DNA of 64,000 nt, from the NCBI GenBank assembly GCA_030949725.1, contig JAUZSE010000023.1:1-64000 (forward strand), read 5' to 3'. The position numbers were made by a program, and so were the translations under genes. Within the stretch, counting starts at the first letter, position 1. Each line of letters opens with the position of its first letter. Of the stretch, positions 8,288 to 59,657 are shown in pieces. This DNA is from Sulfurovum sp. (GTDB lineage Bacteria > Campylobacterota > Campylobacteria > Campylobacterales > Sulfurovaceae). A model generated the notes under the pieces. That model had not been told where the DNA came from and did not search any database. It was given only the letters and a program-made list of their open reading frames with translations.

Positions 8288-8700
8288 CGTTTGATAATAG
8301 ATACGAAATTAAGTACACTAGAGAAGAAAAACTAGAATACAAGATAAACTACAAACATTCCCTTATGCTTAGTGGAGAGAAGAATTACAAAGAGGCAAAC
8401 AAACTTCTTGCTCCTTATGAAAAAGCGTATCCAAAATCCAAGAGACTCATGATTGCCAATATGATGGCTCTTTCATCAATAGAGTTTTATGACAATCAAG
8501 AGAAAGGTTGGGAAGCACTCAAAAGCAATCCGAAAGAGGCTCTGCGATATTTTTCAAAAAATTGTGAGACGAATGCTACAAATGAGTGCCAAGAGGGTAT
8601 GATGTATAGCTACAGCAAGATAGGTAAGCCAATACAATCTACTTTTTGGCAAAAGAACTCTACAAAAAGCATCAAGATGATAAATATCTCAAACTACTAG
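8140..8700 (+). pseudogene. Chimeric frame: transposase-like N-terminus fused to BcsC TPR fragment
   Basis: A frame starting in the 206-bp insert runs through the junction into the second bcsC repeat. Because repeat copy 2 lacks one A in the A-run near 8325, the foreign frame merges with the BcsC frame from LEYKINYKHSLML onward and stays in it until a second one-base deletion (T5 near 8642-8646), ending at 8700. The result is about 186 codons: 50 of transposase-like origin and the rest TPR. It has no signal peptide, so even if translated it would stay in the cytoplasm. I regard it as a by-product of the rearrangement. Confidence 0.5.
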
Positions 8701-9480
8701 TTCGGGACTATCTCCGAATAAAGAGTATAGATAAGGCTCAATTTTACTACACTCTCCTCAAGGATAAAAGAGGGATTGAGAATCCCAAAGAGGTGCAAAG
8801 AGTACTACTTGCAAATCGCTACCTCAAAGAGAAAAACTTGAAAGAGGCAGCACGTGCCATCAAAAAGATCTCCAATCAAAAGCTCAAAGCAAAGTTTAGT
8901 ACTCGTCTTGATATACTTCGTAAAAACAGTGCAAAAGACAGACTCCTAAACTATAGTAGAGCCAAAGAGTATAAAAAATGTTCTGCTTTTGCTACAAAAC
9001 TTATACGATCGTATGGTGACAAAGATATAGATAGAATAGGCGGATGGTGTGCTTTCAATGCTAAGCAATACAAGGAGGCAGAAGTTTTTTTTGAGCGAAT
9101 AGTAGAGAAGGATGCAGAAGATGCAGACTTGTATGCTCTTGCCTTGAATGCAGAGAAATCTCATAATAATACAAAAGCGATAGAATCACTAGAACGTATC
9201 AAAAATCCTTATCAAAAACCTGAACAAATCCTATCACTCTATGTGGATTTGGATCAGACTCGCAATGCCAAAGAGCTTTTGCAAGAGATGAAAGATTCAC
9301 AAGAACGTGATAGCTTAATTAGAAAGGTAAACAAAAGCAACAAGAAAGAATCACACATCCATCAAGTAGTTGGAGGATTCTCTTACTACAGAAATAAAGG
9401 TGAAAAAGGTGAAAACTATTTAGAGCTTACATCCATGCCATTAGATATCGGTTATCTCTCTCAAGATGGTCGATACTATT
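8288..9480 (+). repeat. Direct repeat inside bcsC, copy 2 (1193 bp)
   Basis: This is the second copy of 6887-8081, two bases shorter through one-base losses in an A-run near 8325 and a T-run near 8642. At its right end it runs on without a break into the barrel-coding part of bcsC at 9481, whereas copy 1 runs into the foreign insert. The arrangement is therefore upstream part, repeat, insert, repeat, downstream part. Confidence 0.9.
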
Positions 9481-10085
9481 GGTATGGAGAGATTGATTTT
9501 TTACATATTTCAAATGGGCATACAGTAAGTAGCGATGGCATAGAAGCTACTTTTGGTTTCAAGAGTGATGATTTTCATATAGAAATGGGTTTCACGCCTC
9601 TAGGTATGGAGGTATCACCTGCATTAACTGCTAAATTTTATACCCATTACAGTTGGAACCAATGGGATATCCATGGAGCAGTAGAGCAACAGAGCATTAA
9701 AGAGTCTTCTCTCTCTTATATTGGACAAAAAGTCAGCTATGCAGGAGAGAGATATAGGTGGGGTAGGATACTCAAAAGAGGGGCTACACTTGGCATAAGC
9801 TATGATGGAGATGCAACTTATTCGCTAGATCTCTTCTACTATCCTAAAATATTTGGCGAAAATATCATAGAAAATAGTGAAAAAAAGGTGTCCGCAAGTG
9901 CAATTTATCATACGACTACAGACTATTTCGCCTTTATGGATTGGGGAATGGTATTGATCTATGATGCATTTGAAAAAAACAGTAACTTTTTTACTTATGG
10001 ATATGGGGGCTACTTCTCTCCCGAGAAATTCTTGCTTGCAACTGCTGTAGTAGATATTGGTGACTATATTAGTGAAGATACTTAG
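8646..10085 (+). pseudogene. bcsC: BcsC C-terminal fragment: TPRs and beta-barrel, cut by the IS
   Basis: This open segment (about 479 codons) covers the end of the TPR region in repeat copy 2 and most of the BcsC beta-barrel domain. It stops at a TAG formed by the left end of the second IS (act tag gac). The barrel continues after the IS at 11365 in the same frame. Barrel features are alternating aromatic/polar strands such as FHIEMGFTPLGMEV (a G-x-T-P-L-G element conserved in the BcsC C-terminal family) and FFTYGYGGYFSPEKFL. It has no signal peptide. Confidence 0.78.
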
Positions 10086-13988: not shown

Positions 13989-14663
13989 TTACTCTTTTTC
14001 TTCTAAAGAATATCCTATATTTGGTATGTTTTTTATCGTGAGTTCGGGGAGTTTCTTACGTAGTCGAGTAAGGAGTTCACGCAAAGATGCACTTCGATTT
14101 TCTTCACTTCCCCAGATACTTTCTATAAGTAATTTGCTACGTACTTGGGTATCTTTATGCCTAAGTAAAACATGGAAGCACAAATGCTCTTGTGTACTAA
14201 GCGAAATCAACTCTTCTCTATGATGTAGTGTTCCGATTTTAGCATTATAAGTGTATGCACCTATCTTAAGTATCTCATTTTCAAGAGTCAAAAAATTCTC
14301 TCTATGTTTTGACACCAGTATAAGTATGGTTTCGAGTTGTTTTGGTTGCACAGGCTTAGTAAGGTAGCCTAAGGGTTCTACCTCGCAAGCTTGTGTGATG
14401 GTCTCGTTGTCTAAGTATGCACTCACAAATACAAAAGAGACTAAAGGGTAAAGTTTTTGTACTTCTTTGGCTACTTCTATACCGTTACGTATACCTTTTA
14501 TATTAATATCCATAAAAATCACATCTACCTCTGCACTCTGCATATATTTCAACAGTTCTGCTCCATTAGAATAGATAGCCACAACCTCATGATCAAAAGA
14601 ACTTATCGTTTTTTTTAGAAACAATGCCATGATACCCTCATCTTCTACTATGGCTACTTTCAT
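13989..14663 (-). CDS. Two-component response regulator, OmpR/PhoB-type
   Basis: The 224-residue protein has a receiver domain (1-115) with the acidic pair E7-D8, phospho-acceptor D52 (FMDIN) and the conserved lysine in YLTKPVQP. The C-terminal part (about 130-224) is a winged helix of the Trans_reg_C type, with the recognition-helix region SASLRELLTRLRKKL and the final strand NIGYSL. No histidine kinase gene is adjacent, so it is an orphan in this window. It lies downstream of the protease/hemopexin cluster on the same strand but is separated from it by 117 bases with its own possible promoter. Regulation of that cluster is possible but only by proximity. Confidence 0.9.
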   Translation of the reverse strand: MKVAIVEDEGIMALFLKKTISSFDHEVVAIYSNGAELLKYMQSAEVDVIFMDINIKGIRNGIEVAKEVQKLYPLVSFVFVSAYLDNETITQACEVEPLGYLTKPVQPKQLETILILVSKHRENFLTLENEILKIGAYTYNAKIGTLHHREELISLSTQEHLCFHVLLRHKDTQVRSKLLIESIWGSEENRSASLRELLTRLRKKLPELTIKNIPNIGYSLEEKE

Positions 14664-14780: not shown

Positions 14781-16460
14781 TTATTTACGATATAGCGCCT
14801 TCAGAGCTTTTAATGTTTTGCTATCCTGTTCGCCTATCATCATTTTTCTTATCACTCTTTTTTCTTCTTTGGTGTTAGCATAGCTAGATTTTTTTAACGT
14901 CTCTAGTGCGGATATTTTGTTTTTACTGTAGCCTTTGTTTGCAATGCCTAGTAACACTTCATTAAACTCTGGGTTATCCTTAAAATTAGTAGAAGAAGCA
15001 CTAGCATTGATGAGTGATGTTTTTGTCATTATGCTGTTTTCATTTTCTATGAGTTCTTGAAAATTTTGTGTACTGAGTGTACTTTTTTCTAATCTAGAAA
15101 GAGCATCTGCACTTTTTGCACGCATGTTGGTATCTGTAACATTCATCAGTACTTCATCAACTGCTTCTACAAGATAATCAGGAGCTTGTTCTAGCAGGTT
15201 TCCAGCAGCTGCAAGAGATACAGTTTTGTTCTCTTTTGTTTGCATAGCTTCTATGATACTGTCTACTATTCTTTCTGCTTGTTCAGGTACTCTGTCCATT
15301 CTATGTTTTGCCAATGCCCCCGTTATCATGCCTGTCATATTTTTTATAAGGTCATCAGGATTATTGTCAGCACTAAGGCCATAGTCTAGCATATCTCCTA
15401 ACAATGCATCATCCAAAGGAGCAGATGTATTTTTAAATCCCATAGCTCCTCTAAATCTTTCTTTTTCGATAATCTTGCCATTCATCGTCACTTGACCCAA
15501 GATCTCCACAGTCTCTACCGAATCTAAGTATCCTAACTTTGCAAATAACTTCTTGCTAACCCCATCATCTAAGGTATTTTTTTCTAGTAAGGTACTGAGA
15601 TGTTTGAGAAAGTCCATATGTGCTTTCACCCACTCACCAAATGCCATCCTATCACCTACTAGTCCCTTCATTTCGGTATTGTACTTTTGAAAGTTAGCTT
15701 GTGCCATACTCAGTGACATAGGATTCTTTTTCTTTTGAAAGTCCCATAGTTTGATGTCTGCAGGTAGTGCATAAAACCAATGTTCTTTGGGTAAGAACTC
15801 TTTTATATCCTGCACGTCTAACACTCTCTCATCTTTTATAGTAAGCTTCAATAGGTTACTGGAGGAAGTGATGTTTTCCTTCAGTTCCAAACTTTTCCAT
15901 ATGCCACAACTTTTTTCTAAAAGAGACATACGAATGACACTGTTTTTAAACTTTACATTTTTCTTTTCTTTACCTTTTTCGAAGGATCTCAGTCTTTCAA
16001 TAGTATAGATACCTTTATCAGAATTTTGTTCTGCTTCTATGTACCCTGTAGCATTTTTAAAATGATGCACGCCCTTGGTAGAGGCATACTGCAAGATACT
16101 TATCTTTGCCCACATAAGACTCTCTATACGTTTGTCTTTTGAGGGCATAAACATCTCTTTCGCTCTGTAGCTTCCATTGACATCACTGTAGCGTATCATA
16201 AAAGGTGCATTGTGTGACTCTATGTTAACTTCACTTTTTTTCGTTTTTTTATCTCCATACCAAAAGATGCTGTATTTTACCCCTTTGTCTTCTATATGAT
16301 GTATATAGAGTTTTTCTTGCACACTCTTTTCGCCAAAACTTGTGTTGCCATCTATCGTTTGTGTTAAGTAATGCACATCATCTAGTGCCAAAGTCTGCTG
16401 ACATACTTTGGCATTTAGCATGGTAAGCATAAGAATAAGTATTCCAAACCCATAGTGCAT
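14781..16460 (-). CDS. Exported protein of unknown function with helical repeats
   Basis: I do not recognise this 559-residue protein. It begins with a short signal peptide (residues about 1-17, ending near LNA) followed by a mature start with a single early cysteine (KVCQQ). Residues about 20-200 look beta-rich; from about 330 to the end the sequence is a series of amphipathic helices (for example NLLEQAPDYLVEAVDEVL and MRAKSADALSRLEK) that resemble HEAT/armadillo repeats. Its ATG overlaps the stop of the upstream hemopexin-repeat gene (TAATG), so the two are translationally coupled and probably work together in the periplasm. No enzyme motif is visible. Confidence 0.72.
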   Translation of the reverse strand: MHYGFGILILMLTMLNAKVCQQTLALDDVHYLTQTIDGNTSFGEKSVQEKLYIHHIEDKGVKYSIFWYGDKKTKKSEVNIESHNAPFMIRYSDVNGSYRAKEMFMPSKDKRIESLMWAKISILQYASTKGVHHFKNATGYIEAEQNSDKGIYTIERLRSFEKGKEKKNVKFKNSVIRMSLLEKSCGIWKSLELKENITSSSNLLKLTIKDERVLDVQDIKEFLPKEHWFYALPADIKLWDFQKKKNPMSLSMAQANFQKYNTEMKGLVGDRMAFGEWVKAHMDFLKHLSTLLEKNTLDDGVSKKLFAKLGYLDSVETVEILGQVTMNGKIIEKERFRGAMGFKNTSAPLDDALLGDMLDYGLSADNNPDDLIKNMTGMITGALAKHRMDRVPEQAERIVDSIIEAMQTKENKTVSLAAAGNLLEQAPDYLVEAVDEVLMNVTDTNMRAKSADALSRLEKSTLSTQNFQELIENENSIMTKTSLINASASSTNFKDNPEFNEVLLGIANKGYSKNKISALETLKKSSYANTKEEKRVIRKMMIGEQDSKTLKALKALYRK

Positions 16461-19252
16461 TATAGTACCCCCTTTAAGTCCAGTATCGTTTTTGTTTGTT
16501 CATAGTCTAGCGTATTCCACTCTCTATTAATGAGCCACTCAGTCTTATATATCTTCCATGTTTTATCGACAGACAGAAATCCTCTTCCTAGTGTCCCGAT
16601 AATATTAAATTCGCCTTGTATAAGTCTTATGTAGAACTTTACTGCTCCCGTCCCAATAATTTGTAATTCTTTGTCCGTATTGATGGCAAGTTTTGCACCA
16701 AACTCAGCTTCTCCACCCGTTTCTATCATATTCATCCTAGCTTCAACTTTTGCACTTCCTAGGAACACATTAATCCCTCCTCGCATATATGCACTTACAG
16801 AAAGTGGTGTTTCTAATGTTATTTTAAGTCCTGCACCTTCTATCTCGATACCTGGCTCTATTTTAAAACTCCCTGCCATACCAAAATCTACCTCAATAGG
16901 GAGTGTTGTCGTACTAAAAAAATTATATGAGAATAGAGTAACTTCTTCATCCCAATCAGGCAATTTTAGTCTCACGCTTTTTTTCTTTTCTTTACCTGTT
17001 TCTTCTGCTTTTTTTAGTTCTTCTTCAACATTATCTTTGTCTAATTCTCCCTCTGCATCCTCATCTTCTATGTTCCCAGACGTTATTATCTTAGCACCAA
17101 ACACCGTCAATGTAGCTTTTGCACCTATACGTGTTTTCTTTGCCTTTTCTGCACTAGCTTTGTCTTTTGCTTTGAAAGCAGGATTACTTTTTGTCATCCC
17201 TATACCTGCCTCCATGTCAAACTGTAGAAGACGCACCGTATACCTATCATATATCTCCATAGATATCCGTGAAGTACTTTCTGCACTGATGCTAGGTACA
17301 GACCATTTGGCCTGTATTTCATTTTCACTATCAAAAACTACGGCAAACTTCTTTTTATCTCCATATGTTTCGTCAAATCCTCCCGTATATTTAAAGAGAA
17401 TACCTTCATTGAGGAGTGAATATGAAGTATTTTTTGATGTTCTAAACTGTAATGTTTGCATAAAACCAAGCGCCGTTGCAGCAGAAACTCCACCAGTCAC
17501 ACCAGCACTAAAAGGGCCTGGTGTAAATGAGACGGTATGTACAGACATTGGTTTATTACTTTCATCTTTAGCAAAATAATACTCTATATATTGATCTCCT
17601 TTTATAAAATAGATAAAGGGTGAAGAAGCGGTTCCTCTAAATGCTGCATCAAAAGGAGCAAATGCCCCTAAAGTACTGTCCCAATAGTCTTTAATATTTG
17701 GCTGGGTGCTAAACCCCTCATTTGCTGGTGTGTAGCGTGCATATTTGTTGCCACTAAAGAAATAGATTTTCGTATCCCACCTAAAGGCAGCATCTATAGA
17801 GTCAAACTCCATTTTTGGCCATTTGGTTTTGAGTTTGACAGGAGAGCCATCTATCTCACCTGTTTTTTTGTTATATTTGGCAAACTGATCATCAGAAAAA
17901 AGATACACATACTTATCATCATAATCAAGCGCAGCATCAACTGCACCCAATGTAAAGTTTTTTATTTTTTGAGCATCCTTCCATTCAGTAGAATGAACGG
18001 GTGAACGTGTGCTTATGGCATAGTCAGATTTTAAGAAAGATGAAATGGGACCACTTAGTCCTCGGCTTGCACGATTTGATACCTCACTCGTAGGTATGGA
18101 TATATCTGCCGTAAAGTTCTTTAGATACTTAGAAATTAAAAAAGTCTCTTCTATGTCGTTTGTTTCTATGTCCTCATTTGTGGTATTTACATACCATACG
18201 ATTTTACCTTCTATGCCATCACTGTCTAGCTCTACAGACAAATCTGGCGCTTTCTCTAGGATAGTATCATAAGAATCCTTATCAAGATAGTACGAAAATG
18301 TTACGTCTCCTCCTTGAAGGTTATTGCCGTCAAATGTGGGTATTTTTACAGTCACACTCTTTTTTATGACACCGTCATCTGTATCTAAAAGATCCAATGC
18401 ATACGTTTCACCATCTACCTCAAGTTCTCCTCTAACAGTTAGAGGCTCTTCCCCTGCTACAGTACTATAGATGATCAAGGTTGTTTTTCCTAAAAGTTCG
18501 TTACTATGACCATCTACAAATTTCATGTCTATAGGTAAATCCATATACTCCTCTGATACTGTATCTACGATTTCTATTGTTTTTACATCACTTTTCTCTA
18601 CCAAGTCGATATAAAAACCTCCGATATAGGGATTATTTCGTACATCTTCAAGTGATCCAGATTCATCATTACTTTTGTTAATATCTTGATTAGAGACATA
18701 TACAAATAGCAAATACTTACCTGCACTGAGATTTGTATCATCAGGGATAAGCGTTTCTATGTTAAGTGCATACTCTCCTGATTCATTGACATCATCAATA
18801 AACCCTTGATCTATAAGCTTAACTGGTGAGTCTGATTGATCAATATTTTGTATAAATATATCAAAGCCTAGAGCTGTGTCAAATGCTTTGTGGGTTGTAA
18901 AGTCAATATTTATATTGTAGAAATGTCCCTTTGTTAACTTGACGGGTGTTGTTTCATTTTCAAAATCAGAATTGACCGTGGCAATGACTGGTAAAGCATC
19001 CAACAAGTCCTCAAAAGTACTACTATCACCTTCTTCCTCTGCTTTATCTTCATAGCTATCTATCTTGTACTTTTCCTTGACACCATCAATCTCTGCTATC
19101 CTTATATCTTCCAATATAAAAATCTTTTCAGCAGGTTCTATAAGCCCCGAACTGCTAGCATTTTCTTGAGAGCCTTCTCCTCCACAACCTGTGACTATCA
19201 TCATAGCTACAGCAAATAGTGCAATCTTTTGATATAATATTTTTCTTAACAT
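16460..19252 (-). CDS. Large lipoprotein with hemopexin-like repeats
   Basis: The 930-residue protein has a lipoprotein signal peptide with the lipobox VTGC, acylated at C23. Residues about 85-390 are beta-rich. Three hemopexin-like repeats follow at about 434-461, 484-508 and 530-560, each with the pattern DAA(F/L)...YFF..(D/N)xYxxY (for example IDAAFRWDTKIYFFSG). Residues about 690-770 hold a lysine/glutamate-rich stretch, and the C-terminal third is glycine- and beta-rich, ending in a possible surface-exposed domain. Hemopexin repeats form a beta-propeller that binds proteins, metals or heme; which applies here cannot be read from sequence. It sits between a subtilase lipoprotein and an exported helical-repeat protein, and overlaps the latter gene by one base. 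Confidence 0.8.
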   Translation of the reverse strand: MLRKILYQKIALFAVAMMIVTGCGGEGSQENASSSGLIEPAEKIFILEDIRIAEIDGVKEKYKIDSYEDKAEEEGDSSTFEDLLDALPVIATVNSDFENETTPVKLTKGHFYNINIDFTTHKAFDTALGFDIFIQNIDQSDSPVKLIDQGFIDDVNESGEYALNIETLIPDDTNLSAGKYLLFVYVSNQDINKSNDESGSLEDVRNNPYIGGFYIDLVEKSDVKTIEIVDTVSEEYMDLPIDMKFVDGHSNELLGKTTLIIYSTVAGEEPLTVRGELEVDGETYALDLLDTDDGVIKKSVTVKIPTFDGNNLQGGDVTFSYYLDKDSYDTILEKAPDLSVELDSDGIEGKIVWYVNTTNEDIETNDIEETFLISKYLKNFTADISIPTSEVSNRASRGLSGPISSFLKSDYAISTRSPVHSTEWKDAQKIKNFTLGAVDAALDYDDKYVYLFSDDQFAKYNKKTGEIDGSPVKLKTKWPKMEFDSIDAAFRWDTKIYFFSGNKYARYTPANEGFSTQPNIKDYWDSTLGAFAPFDAAFRGTASSPFIYFIKGDQYIEYYFAKDESNKPMSVHTVSFTPGPFSAGVTGGVSAATALGFMQTLQFRTSKNTSYSLLNEGILFKYTGGFDETYGDKKKFAVVFDSENEIQAKWSVPSISAESTSRISMEIYDRYTVRLLQFDMEAGIGMTKSNPAFKAKDKASAEKAKKTRIGAKATLTVFGAKIITSGNIEDEDAEGELDKDNVEEELKKAEETGKEKKKSVRLKLPDWDEEVTLFSYNFFSTTTLPIEVDFGMAGSFKIEPGIEIEGAGLKITLETPLSVSAYMRGGINVFLGSAKVEARMNMIETGGEAEFGAKLAINTDKELQIIGTGAVKFYIRLIQGEFNIIGTLGRGFLSVDKTWKIYKTEWLINREWNTLDYEQTKTILDLKGVL

Positions 19253-19278
19253 GGATTATCCTTCATTTTTATTTTATT

Positions 19279-20491
19279 TTAATCAAGTAACTTTTTAGCT
19301 TCAAATACAGCTCTTGATGCATTGACTTTCCCGTAAGCTCTCTTTTCATCAAACCCATCCTCATAAGAGGCATCATCCCCACCTATTTGTTCACTATAGT
19401 CTATGAGAATATCGCGTACTTGTTTGGGTGTAATATTGGGGTTAACGCTATACATAAGTCCTACCACACCCGCAGCAACAGGCGTTGCAAAACTTGTTCC
19501 AGATGTAAAAGCATAAGCATTCGTCACAAGACCATTCTGCGTACTACTTCCTCTATCGCCAGTGTCATCTATACCTAACACACCTAAAGCCTCTTGCGTA
19601 TCTCCACCAGGAGCCAAGATATCGATGTTTTTACCATAGTTAGAATACGATGTTACGTCATTATTTTCACCACTCGCACCAACACCTATAACCCATTGCG
19701 ATTCAGACTCATCGTTGATGTCATCATCTTCATTGTCTAAGGTCTTACCATCATTCCCTGAGGCAAATAAAATAGTGATATTTGCCTCATAAAGTGATTT
19801 AAGTTCACTCTCCACAGCTTGTGATACATGCTCCGTACCCCAGCTACAACTTATCACTTGTGCGCCTTCATTTTTGGCAAACTCAAAAGCTTTAATGGTC
19901 GCTGCATCAGAATTTCCAGTATATTTTATGAGTATGAGTTTACTTTCAGGTGCTGTACCTATGATACCTTTCCCATTGATAGGGGCTGCGATAAAACCTG
20001 CACGTGTTACCATGAGAACCACCATTTAAGTCTCCCCCTAATGGCGTTTTATTTGAGACATCGTTAGTACCATCATCTACGTTGTAGGTAGCAATGATAT
20101 TGTCTTTAAGGTCTTCATGTTCTACATCAAAAGCATCATCTATAACAGCAATCTTGACATTTTTACCTCTACTTATTGTCCATGCTTCTGTGATGTTTAT
20201 ATCTGCATTTGGATTTATCTCAATGCCATCTATATCCCCAGTATTAGAATCGATATGCCATAAGTATTTATAGTAAGGTTCCTCCCTTAGCGCTAATGGT
20301 GCATTCGAATCTTCTGGATTTGATGTATCTAAGTCTATAGTGTCGATTATATCTACATCTATATTCTCTGTTGTGTTTTCATCTACTATGTTCTCATCTG
20401 CACTTCGAACACTAGAAGTGTTACTTCCACAACCACTCAACAACATTATACTTACGATCATACTCAAAAGTAATTTATATCTATAATTCAT
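19279..20491 (-). pseudogene. Subtilisin-like (S8) serine protease lipoprotein, frameshifted
   Basis: The gene encodes a subtilase of about 404 residues with a lipoprotein signal (LSGC, C21). The catalytic triad is complete in two frames: Asp118 in AVIDDAFD and His160 in GGSHG in the first, Ser in TSGTSFATP and the oxyanion Asn in FASGNDG in the second. The frame changes just after the His motif near 19999-20012; loss of two bases (or one extra base) would restore a normal continuation into AGFIAAP. It has almost no propeptide of its own: only about 70 low-complexity, acidic residues lie between the lipid anchor and the catalytic domain. A separate propeptide-like protein is encoded one base upstream. 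If the frameshift is a sequence error, it is a membrane-anchored protease. Confidence 0.85.
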
Positions 20492-20492
20492 C

Positions 20493-20882
20493 TTATCTTC
20501 TTTTCATTGTTTTTTTGAAATTTGGATGCGCGAAGAGAATATTTTTATCCTCATGTAGTTTTTGTGAAACTTTAAAAATGTTATCTCCTTTGTTGACTTC
20601 CGCTAAAAAAAGTGTCTTTGATAACTTAGAGATATTTTTTAAAGAATGACTCTTGAGTACATCCGTACAATTAACATCACTTTCACACTGAACAATAAGT
20701 TCATTTGTTACAGCAACTTTATGTCCATACTCTGTCACATAATAATGTACATCATTACCCGACATTGCTCTGTTTTGTTCCACACTTGTTAAAGTAACTT
20801 TTTTACCATGCTCATAATAATACTCATTCGCACAAGCATTTAAAGATACCAATACAAGTATCGCTGCTATTTTTTCTTTCAT
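20493..20882 (-). CDS. Small exported protein resembling a free-standing subtilase propeptide
   Basis: The 129-residue product has a signal peptide with a likely lipobox (LNAC, C17). Its C-terminal half, with VTNELIVQC near residues 58-66 and NIFKVSQKLHEDKNILFAHPNF near 101-122, follows the layout of the N-terminal prodomain of many S8 proteases: a ferredoxin-like fold whose last strand ends in an A-x-P-N-x-x segment just before the mature enzyme. Here it ends as its own protein, and the protease gene starts one base after its stop. In the family the prodomain acts as folding chaperone and inhibitor, so a role in trans on the downstream protease is the natural inference. It could also be an early half of a once-fused gene. 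Confidence 0.65.
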   Translation of the reverse strand: MKEKIAAILVLVSLNACANEYYYEHGKKVTLTSVEQNRAMSGNDVHYYVTEYGHKVAVTNELIVQCESDVNCTDVLKSHSLKNISKLSKTLFLAEVNKGDNIFKVSQKLHEDKNILFAHPNFKKTMKRR

Positions 20883-33770: not shown

Positions 33771-36254
33771 TTATACCTTTCTCAATGTTACTGTTTTGTA
33801 TCGTGATCCGCCAAAGAGGTCATAGACACCTTCTGCTGCTCTATAGTCTGGCACTTTTACAATATCACCTATAATTTTTGCATCTGCAACCACATCTAAA
33901 GTAATGCTTCCATTTTCAAATACTACTTCTACTTTTTCACCTAAAGTCTCTGCTTTTTTAGGACTAACATAGAGTGCAAATGTTTCAAAAATTTCATGTG
34001 ATTTATCGGTAAAGTCATTAAATTGTCTCGCAGGGTTACATCTATACGCTATGTCACCCTCTAGTACTGCATTCTCATCACATTTTGCAACTTCAGGAAG
34101 TTCAGTTTCAACAGTTGTAGTTTCTAGTCTATAGCCTCGATTATCTGTACCGTCATTTTCAAATGAATTTGGGAGGGAATCAAAAGCCACTGCTTTAAAG
34201 CCTTTATCTGTTGGAAGTGTTAGAGTCCAATCAATAGTTAATTCAGGTGCATCAATGAGTACTTGCATAAGGTCATTGAGTTCATACCCATTATATTCAA
34301 CCGCAGCATTGGTCGGAAGTACACGTTTACCGATGTTACACAATGTCCCTTCTTGCTGGTTCATAGCAGGCATATCAAGATCACCTGTTCCTAGTGCAGA
34401 AAGTTTGAAGTCACCATTCTCGTTGTATCCAACAGTGTAACCACTTTGTACATCATCAAGATCACAAATAAGTGCAACACCCAAAGCATTAGATTTTGGA
34501 GGTGTCATCACTATATCAATACCACATGTAGCTTCTACAAGTGCCACAAGTTTAGCAATGTTTTCTGCTTTGTCGTGATAATAAAGATCTTCACCTAACA
34601 TCATAGAAAAAGATTCTTTTTTCTTCATCATTTTTTCAAAAGTGGCATCAAATGTAGAAGCATCACCACCGAGTAAGTCTACAAGACCGTTCTGATGTCA
34701 CAGTAATCTCTTTGTCGATCATTTCAGTCACTTTCTTAGAAACTTCTTCTTCTTCACCCGTCTCTTCATTTAAAACCATCTCTTTAACAGTTGATAATTT
34801 TTTTCTCTTTGATCATTTTTGTGGATGTTTTCTTAAAGCTTTCTATATAATCTTTAACATCTGAAGAAAGTTTTTCTTTATCTGCAAACAAATCAAGTAC
34901 CAAATAAAGTGCTGCTTCTTCAAGTCCTACTTTATGGTTAAATGTTTCTACATTTTTACCAAAAGTTGGGATAAGTGTATCTCCTACAGGGTGAAAGTAA
35001 AGACCTGCACCTTTATTCATCTTTTGCACATTGTTATACGCATATTTCATCGCAGGTGAATCATTTCTAAGTGCTGCACCTATAGAGATAACAAAATCAG
35101 AATTTTTCATAATCACGTCTGTATCTGTACTCCAAAGACTGTTTCCAGACGCTGCTTCATAATAATTTAAGAATTTTTGGAAAGCTCTTACTTCAGGATT
35201 GTAAAGCTTCACTCCCATTTTTTCTTTCAAATCTTGAAGCATAGCAGCTTCTTCGTTGCTTATCATAGAGTTAAAACGTACAGTCTCAGCTTTCTTAAAT
35301 GCTTCAATCGCTGCGTTAAATGCTAGTTTCATCTTTACTAGCAGTGGTATTTTGGAAATCATAAGCAAAACGTGCAGAACCATCTAAAGAGACAAAAGAC
35401 CACTCATTGGTGATTCTGAAAATCTTTTCTGTTCTGTCTTCTATAGAGGTTGGTTTCACTTCATAATAAATTTGTGCACCATCAGAACTATGTGCTGCGA
35501 CTGCAGGAACTCTCTTTAAGTCCCAAGCATTTGAAGTGTAAACAAAGTCTCTACTTACCAATGCACCTACAGGACATACCGCGATACACTCACCACAATC
35601 AGAACAATTCGTTTCGCCTGTACCATTGCTTGGGGCAATTACAGATTTTTGAAGTTTGTTCCACATAGAGTAAGCATCTTTAGGCATCGTATCTTTATAT
35701 GCTTTATCTAATACTTCTCCGCCTCTTTTTGCAGTAGTAATCGCTGCGTCACCTATCATATCTTTACAAACGGTGGTACAACGTTCACATACGATACAAA
35801 GACCTGGATCGTAATGTAACACCGATGACCAGTTCGTCGTTTCACGTTTTGTATCTGGAATCATATAAGATTGTGAATCCACACCCATCTCTAAGGTATA
35901 GTTTTGTAATTCACATTCTCCAGATTTGTCACATACACCACATTGTAAAGGGTGATTGACATCGTAGACTTCCATAATAGCTCTACGTTCTTCAAGAATG
36001 GTTGGCGTGTCAATCGTCACAGCCATCCCTTCTTTTACTTTGGTATTACAGGAATATACCTGCTTACCATCTGCTTCTACCAAACAAATACGACATGCCA
36101 AAGTTGGCGAACATCTTGTCAGGTAACATATAGCCGGGACAAAAATATCGTTAGCACGTGCAGCGTTAAGGATAAATTCTCCCTCTTTCGCTTGATACTC
36201 TGCACCATCAATTGTGATATTAACCATATTCTCTACTGTTTTTACTTCACTCAT
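33771..36254 (-). CDS. nuoG: NADH-quinone oxidoreductase subunit G, three one-base lesions
   Basis: NuoG is the large iron-sulfur subunit of the peripheral arm. The first 312 codons from 36254 carry the [2Fe-2S] cysteines (CYLTRCSPTLACRIC and later cysteines), the His-Cys cluster (HPLQCGVCDKSGEC), CIVCERCTTVC and CSDCGECIAVC. The frame then changes at an A-run at 35327-35329, again in an A7 run (T7 on the plus strand, 34798-34804) and once more near 34687-34694; each looks like one extra base. Restored, it is about 826 residues, with the molybdopterin-type fold after the clusters and a beta-domain at the end. Three errors in one essential complex subunit argue for poor sequence quality or low-coverage assembly here. 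nuoH starts one base after its stop. Confidence 0.9.

Positions 36255-40159: not shown

Positions 40160-42342
<2,183 letters not shown>

Positions 42343-50974: not shown

Positions 50975-59657
<8,683 letters not shown>

Follow-up and report, generated by a model that had tools for sequence, protein, structure and literature searches.

The small protein encoded by the first gene of a four-gene, minus-strand cluster in the window (the whole stretch of 64,000 nucleotides of Sulfurovum sp. DNA that was analysed) is, as its sequence relatives settle, the prodomain of an S8 protease (subtilase). By analogy with Aeromonas ASP/ORF2, we consider it likely that this prodomain acts in trans, as both foldase and product-like inhibitor of the propeptide-less, lipid-anchored protease encoded next to it. 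The other two genes of the cluster are read as a separate module. Conserved adjacency of the two genes, fused relatives, an exact C-terminus, the fold class and a Kex2/furin-like catalytic domain were all obtained by computation. The assignment would supply a role for a small protein that, in most members, lies below the cut-off of every Pfam family.

Gene layout and the broken protease frame

A check of the open reading frames (ORFs) bore out the coordinates, the co-orientation and the spacing given in the first-pass annotation. The prodomain gene (20493-20882, 129 aa) is separated from the protease by a 1-bp gap, the protease from the gene for the hemopexin lipoprotein (16460-19252, 930 aa) by a 26-bp gap, and the latter overlaps the gene for the helical-repeat protein (14781-16460, 559 aa) by 1 bp. 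The protease had been taken for one intact gene, and a break had been overlooked: there are actually two overlapping minus-strand ORFs. The N-terminal part (19946-20491, 181 aa) comprises a signal, a lipobox (LSGC), an acidic low-complexity spacer and the Asp (VIDD) and His (SHGNT) motifs, after which it runs out of frame. The C-terminal part (19279-20025, 248 aa) contains AGF, the oxyanion motif SGND and the catalytic Ser in GTSFATP, and matches Peptidase_S8 with 124 bits. By comparison with relatives, the break lies approximately at 19998-20008 (minus strand), inside the conserved HGNTC/AGF and just past the catalytic His; 13 aligned relatives are intact across this HGNTCAGF segment.

We considered the possibility that the protease is a real pseudogene and that the pair is dead in the Sulfurovum sp. 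of this assembly. Loss of the frame right after the catalytic His would fit such a decay, as would the lack of any other S8 gene in the assembly, but the remainder of the protease is well conserved and several indispensable genes of the window show the same kind of break. Thus, rpoB, rpoC, nuoG and monomeric isocitrate dehydrogenase are also split into overlapping frames, the last of them giving three pieces that follow one another along the profile, and a sensor kinase on another contig of the genome (C7) is split as well. Because these window genes are broken likewise, the break in the protease is almost certainly an assembly indel error, which is far likelier than a pseudogene; we regard a truly dead gene as very improbable. 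The split rpoC, rpoB, monomeric isocitrate dehydrogenase and nuoG occupy 50975-58572, 40160-42342 and 34784-36254 of the window. The assembly consists of 25 contigs and is 69.6% complete, and its many indel errors call for care with frame-based findings in this window.

The free-standing prodomain and its relatives

The 129-aa protein has a signal peptide, a ferredoxin-like core at approximately residues 58-121 and a C-terminus ending in KRR. It scored 15.6 against the Fervidolysin prodomain family (Fervidolysin_NPro-like, PF22148), under the Pfam cut-off of 21; the relative at locus L037 exceeded this cut-off with 22.6, and several other members fell just below it. A search of PDB sequences with the prodomain as the direct query gave no subtilase among its matches. 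The first-pass annotation had taken the gene product for the prodomain of a subtilase, exported as a protein on its own, and had suggested searching for it beside S8 proteases in other genomes. That reading is upheld by the recurrent pairing with S8 genes, by fused relatives and by the fold model described below. The protein had also been called a lipoprotein; export stands, and the lipid anchor is doubtful, with a lipobox in only a few relatives and an ordinary signal peptide in most.

A profile of the small protein recovered 31 further distinct free-standing copies adjoining an S8 gene, and a scan of named genomes with an S8 alignment yielded 80 loci. The prodomain/S8 pair is split in ≈45 distinct Campylobacterota loci, single-contig genomes included, and the profile search placed free-standing prodomains beside S8 genes in Sulfurimonas, Sulfurovum, Helicobacteraceae and other Campylobacterota. 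The spacing ranges from -10 to a few bases, and the genes are usually translationally coupled. In about ten other loci, prodomain and protease are fused into one chain (among them L038, L073 and Nitratiruptor loci, with fused copies also listed as L075-L077), and in a few the gene order is reversed, clearly so in L065, where the prodomain lies downstream of the S8 gene. Searched by family, the prodomain occurred in 12 of 150 genomes, always adjoining an S8 gene and fused to one in a single genome; across the class, the search detected the prodomain in 26 of 397 genomes, from 15 of the 68 genera, and several of these genomes are single-contig. About half of the family's genomes (73/150) have some S8 gene, and the split type is therefore a minority type. 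S8 proteins of other phyla gave no match to the prodomain profile, and the viral contigs and plasmids searched contained no relative. When catalytic domains were placed in a tree, the Campylobacterota sequences, whether split, fused or reversed, fell together against the other phyla; the tree does not fix the number of fissions or fusions.

Fused homologues had been named beforehand as the sign of an ordinary pre-pro-protease split by error. Such homologues do exist, and frame breaks do occur in this assembly, but a split by error does not follow, since the split is kept in dozens of genomes. A cut made by a sequencing error or a recent mutation would leave unexplained the ≈45 distinct pairs, the spread over genera with single-contig genomes among them, the start and lipoprotein signal that the second gene has of its own, the exact C-terminal Arg of the prodomain and the clearly reversed gene order at L065. 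We rejected it for the family as a whole, and for the window we consider it extremely improbable.

Most free-standing prodomains share an exact end: 42 of 47 terminate in Arg, mostly within a furin-type [RK]xxR. In the first set, this was so for all 32 distinct copies, the window's included, which form 26 clusters at 70% identity; nearly all of them have Arg or Lys four residues from the end, counting the terminal residue as the first. Among 14 further copies, ten end in Arg and one in Lys, while three distant ones end in Gln, Met or Tyr. The codon for the terminal residue in the window, Arg129, lies at 20496-20498 (minus strand), and Arg129 aligns with the P1 processing residue of the fused relatives, in which the same column holds the final basic residue ahead of the mature protease (HRR/GFDPYY, KKR/FFDPLF). 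The KKR or HRR processing site of the fused forms is thus found at the position of the free-standing Arg end. The split proteases, in turn, reach a mature start (EPYYKYAWH) after a signal peptide and spacer, and this start matches that of the fused mature domains, in agreement with the earlier description of only a short low-complexity spacer before the catalytic domain. The prodomain gene is separated at the processing site, and the prodomain would therefore be born already cut.

A few loci depart from the common arrangement. At L071, an S8 gene belonging to the group has no adjacent prodomain, in a genome that has a prodomain elsewhere; the reversed pair (L065:5668-7081) and this lone protease (L071:5617-6675) come from the same genome, where one prodomain might serve two proteases. 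The copy in genome G518 (L164:1480-1884) is an orphan prodomain-like protein that ends in Tyr and adjoins a 485-aa repeat protein, not an S8 gene. Locus L067, labelled Fibrobacter succinogenes, has a Campylobacterota-type split pair and is probably a mis-binned contig.

The hemopexin and helical-repeat genes

The 930-aa lipoprotein (minus strand, like its partner) consists of an N-terminal beta domain, a hemopexin propeller (approximately residues 430-600) and a C-terminal beta-rich part. The hemopexin assignment made earlier holds well, with a repeat match (PF00045) of 54.6 bits against a cut-off of 21.3. Its partner, the secreted 559-aa protein, begins with a beta region and ends in helical repeats; the Pfam scan of this protein gave a HEAT match below threshold and nothing stronger. 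A single-sequence structure model of it reached a pLDDT of 37.9, too low to be of use. A large-lipid-transfer (vitellogenin-like) fold was also considered and rejected, as the profile matched nothing of the kind in PDB sequences.

A second copy of the pair is found on contig C7 of the same genome, at 53% and 63% identity and without the protease, where it adjoins a 7TMR-DISM kinase and a response regulator. The pair is also present in genome G091, where its neighbor is again a 7TMR-DISM kinase, and G115 has part of the helical-repeat gene. A first genome-collection scan with the 559-aa protein gave no match, and hundreds of class, family and genus genomes held no more copies of it. The module is very rare. 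In the window, a response regulator lies downstream of the module (13989-14663, minus strand), and related copies of the module adjoin 7TMR-DISM kinase or regulator genes. This suggests two-component control of the module, under which the two proteins would probably bind a ligand together at the cell surface or in the periplasm. The 7TMR-DISM kinases at L042:5456-8021 and L043:56-1903 are oriented divergently beside the pair, with the response regulator on C7. Elsewhere in the window, 8646-10085 encodes a protein with TPR repeats and the C-terminal domain of cellulose synthase operon protein C (BCSC_C, 104.5 bits).

The first-pass annotation had presented the four genes as one envelope system. 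We looked for the hemopexin or helical-repeat gene near other prodomain/S8 loci and found none, and the pairing of the two modules did not turn up in the class, family and genus searches, so that a four-gene system was rejected on co-occurrence. Because the hemopexin/helical pair recurs without the protease and no prodomain/S8 locus carries the pair, the four genes are read as two modules, although two of the three other pair sites are cut by contig ends and the absence of a protease there is only partly assessed. The best explanation is that the hemopexin/helical module merely happens to lie downstream of the prodomain and protease.

A functional link would nevertheless be conceivable if the protease acted on its neighbor. 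The hemopexin protein has only one RxxR, RASR at residues 394-397 (18062-18073, minus strand), in the linker before the propeller, a possible cleavage site. In its paralogue on C7, a single RxxR (residues 390-393) likewise falls in this linker, which has otherwise diverged; the numbers expected anywhere in the two proteins are 0.46 and 0.56. The G091 homologue has no RxxR in that linker, and its genome has no S8 match. The comparison spans three hemopexin sequences, too few to carry much weight, and the motif was sought after the fact. Speculatively, from these sequences, the hemopexin protein could be a substrate of the protease: a furin-like, lipid-anchored enzyme, governed by its separate, pre-cut prodomain, would also cut the lipoprotein at the linker and free the propeller from the envelope, with the helical-repeat protein as partner. 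Adjacency, co-orientation and the short gaps speak for one system of this kind, as does the distribution of the motif, but the four genes have not been seen together elsewhere and the genome itself has a second copy without protease. We consider a single four-gene system unlikely, and the cut at RxxR equally so.

Proposed action of the pair and comparison with known systems

The Peptidase S8 domain (PF00082) scored 124.3 bits in the C-terminal and 21.5 bits in the N-terminal part of the window protease, these being two separate frames in this assembly, and the Asp, His and Ser triad motifs align with those of 13 relatives. The lipobox is conserved in relatives, and 23 of 25 proteases retain an Asp ahead of the Ser motif. 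The Pfam scan showed no P domain after the catalytic domain; the ORF stops just past it. An AlphaFold2 model of the fused protein L073, for which the split prodomains and the split proteases were entered as unpaired rows, had a pLDDT of 86.5 and a β-α-β-β-α-β prodomain directly before the mature protease. The linker had a pLDDT <50, the prodomain was not placed on the active site, and the whole-chain match to pro-subtilisin E had an rmsd of ≈23 over both domains. In VIA-align 2, the model matched Kex2 (Z = 43.0), furin (42.5) and mirolase (41.1), with subtilisins behind at ≈38; these and the Foldseek matches mostly reflect the catalytic domain. By fold, the catalytic domain thus comes closest to Kex2, furin and mirolase, and no P domain follows it. 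We infer a preference for basic P1 residues from the way the prodomains end, from the fold match and from the conserved Asp before the Ser motif, and the [RK]xxR ends together with the structural match suggest that the specificity should be Kex2/furin-like.

We propose that prodomain and protease are both exported, and that the prodomain folds in the periplasm into its β-α-β-β-α-β fold. It would then template, in trans, the folding of the lipid-anchored protease, which lacks a propeptide, and remain bound to it as a temporary inhibitor, its C-terminal Arg (mostly within [R/K]-x-x-R) lying in the S1 pocket like a pre-cut product. An autoprocessing cut would be unnecessary, and activity would begin once the prodomain is degraded or displaced. 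The term "trans-acting inhibitor" used for it earlier therefore captures only half of the likely role: since the protease comes without a built-in prodomain, it should also need the separate one to fold. Against the proposed action in trans, we counted the window prodomain's score below the Pfam cut-off, the docking that the model does not resolve, the four distant copies without a basic end, L071, and the broken protease frame in this assembly.

The separate protein might instead be a dedicated inhibitor of the stand-alone I9 type that guards the envelope, and the protease would fold alone. There is precedent in Plasmodium SUB1-ProM, a stand-alone prodomain-like protein that is encoded beside subtilase genes and inhibits in trans (PMC6993865), and L071 has no neighboring prodomain. 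However, the proteases targeted by known inhibitors, SUB1 among them, keep a prodomain of their own, whereas those described here have only a signal peptide and a low-complexity spacer. We therefore consider a pure inhibitor rather improbable, and retain the prodomain as both foldase and inhibitor.

Subtilase prodomains are the textbook intramolecular chaperone. Fervidolysin and other pro-subtilisins resemble the present system in prodomain fold and position, and in the weak match to the Fervidolysin prodomain family, but their prodomain is part of the same chain, whereas here it is a separate gene product that ends exactly at the processing site. Kex2 and furin provide the best structural match for the catalytic domain, and the prodomain here has an [RK]xxR-like end; they differ in having a P domain, while the protease here is a bacterial lipoprotein served by a prodomain in trans. 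Mirolase of Tannerella forsythia is the closest solved bacterial protease by sequence. It is encoded beside a lipoprotein inhibitor, potempin C; potempin is not known to be a prodomain, and mirolase carries an N-terminal profragment of its own.

The closest parallel is Aeromonas sobria ASP, like the protease here a propeptide-less, kexin-like subtilase with a separate partner encoded by a neighboring gene. ASP maturation requires this partner, ORF2, a chaperone that also inhibits, with its basic C-terminal residue at the catalytic site (PMC5638518), and a 2022 survey named ASP as the exception among subtilases (PMC9549277). The systems differ in that ORF2 is encoded downstream, whereas the prodomain here is nearly always upstream and coupled; ASP comes from another phylum, and the present proteases are lipoproteins that lack a P domain and have fused relatives. 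A search for the ORF2 N-terminal family (ORF_2_N, PF18492) gave nothing above the cut-off, the relative at L028 reaching 17.1 against 29.2, with a weak match in 2 of 14 members. A Campylobacterota group with a separate, exactly ended prodomain and with fused and reversed relatives provides a set of natural variants in which three questions can be addressed: the mode of action of a prodomain in trans, the reason for which a fission persists, and the match between C-terminal residue and protease specificity. By analogy, the pair is best read as a subtilase with an external prodomain chaperone of the ASP/ORF2 type.
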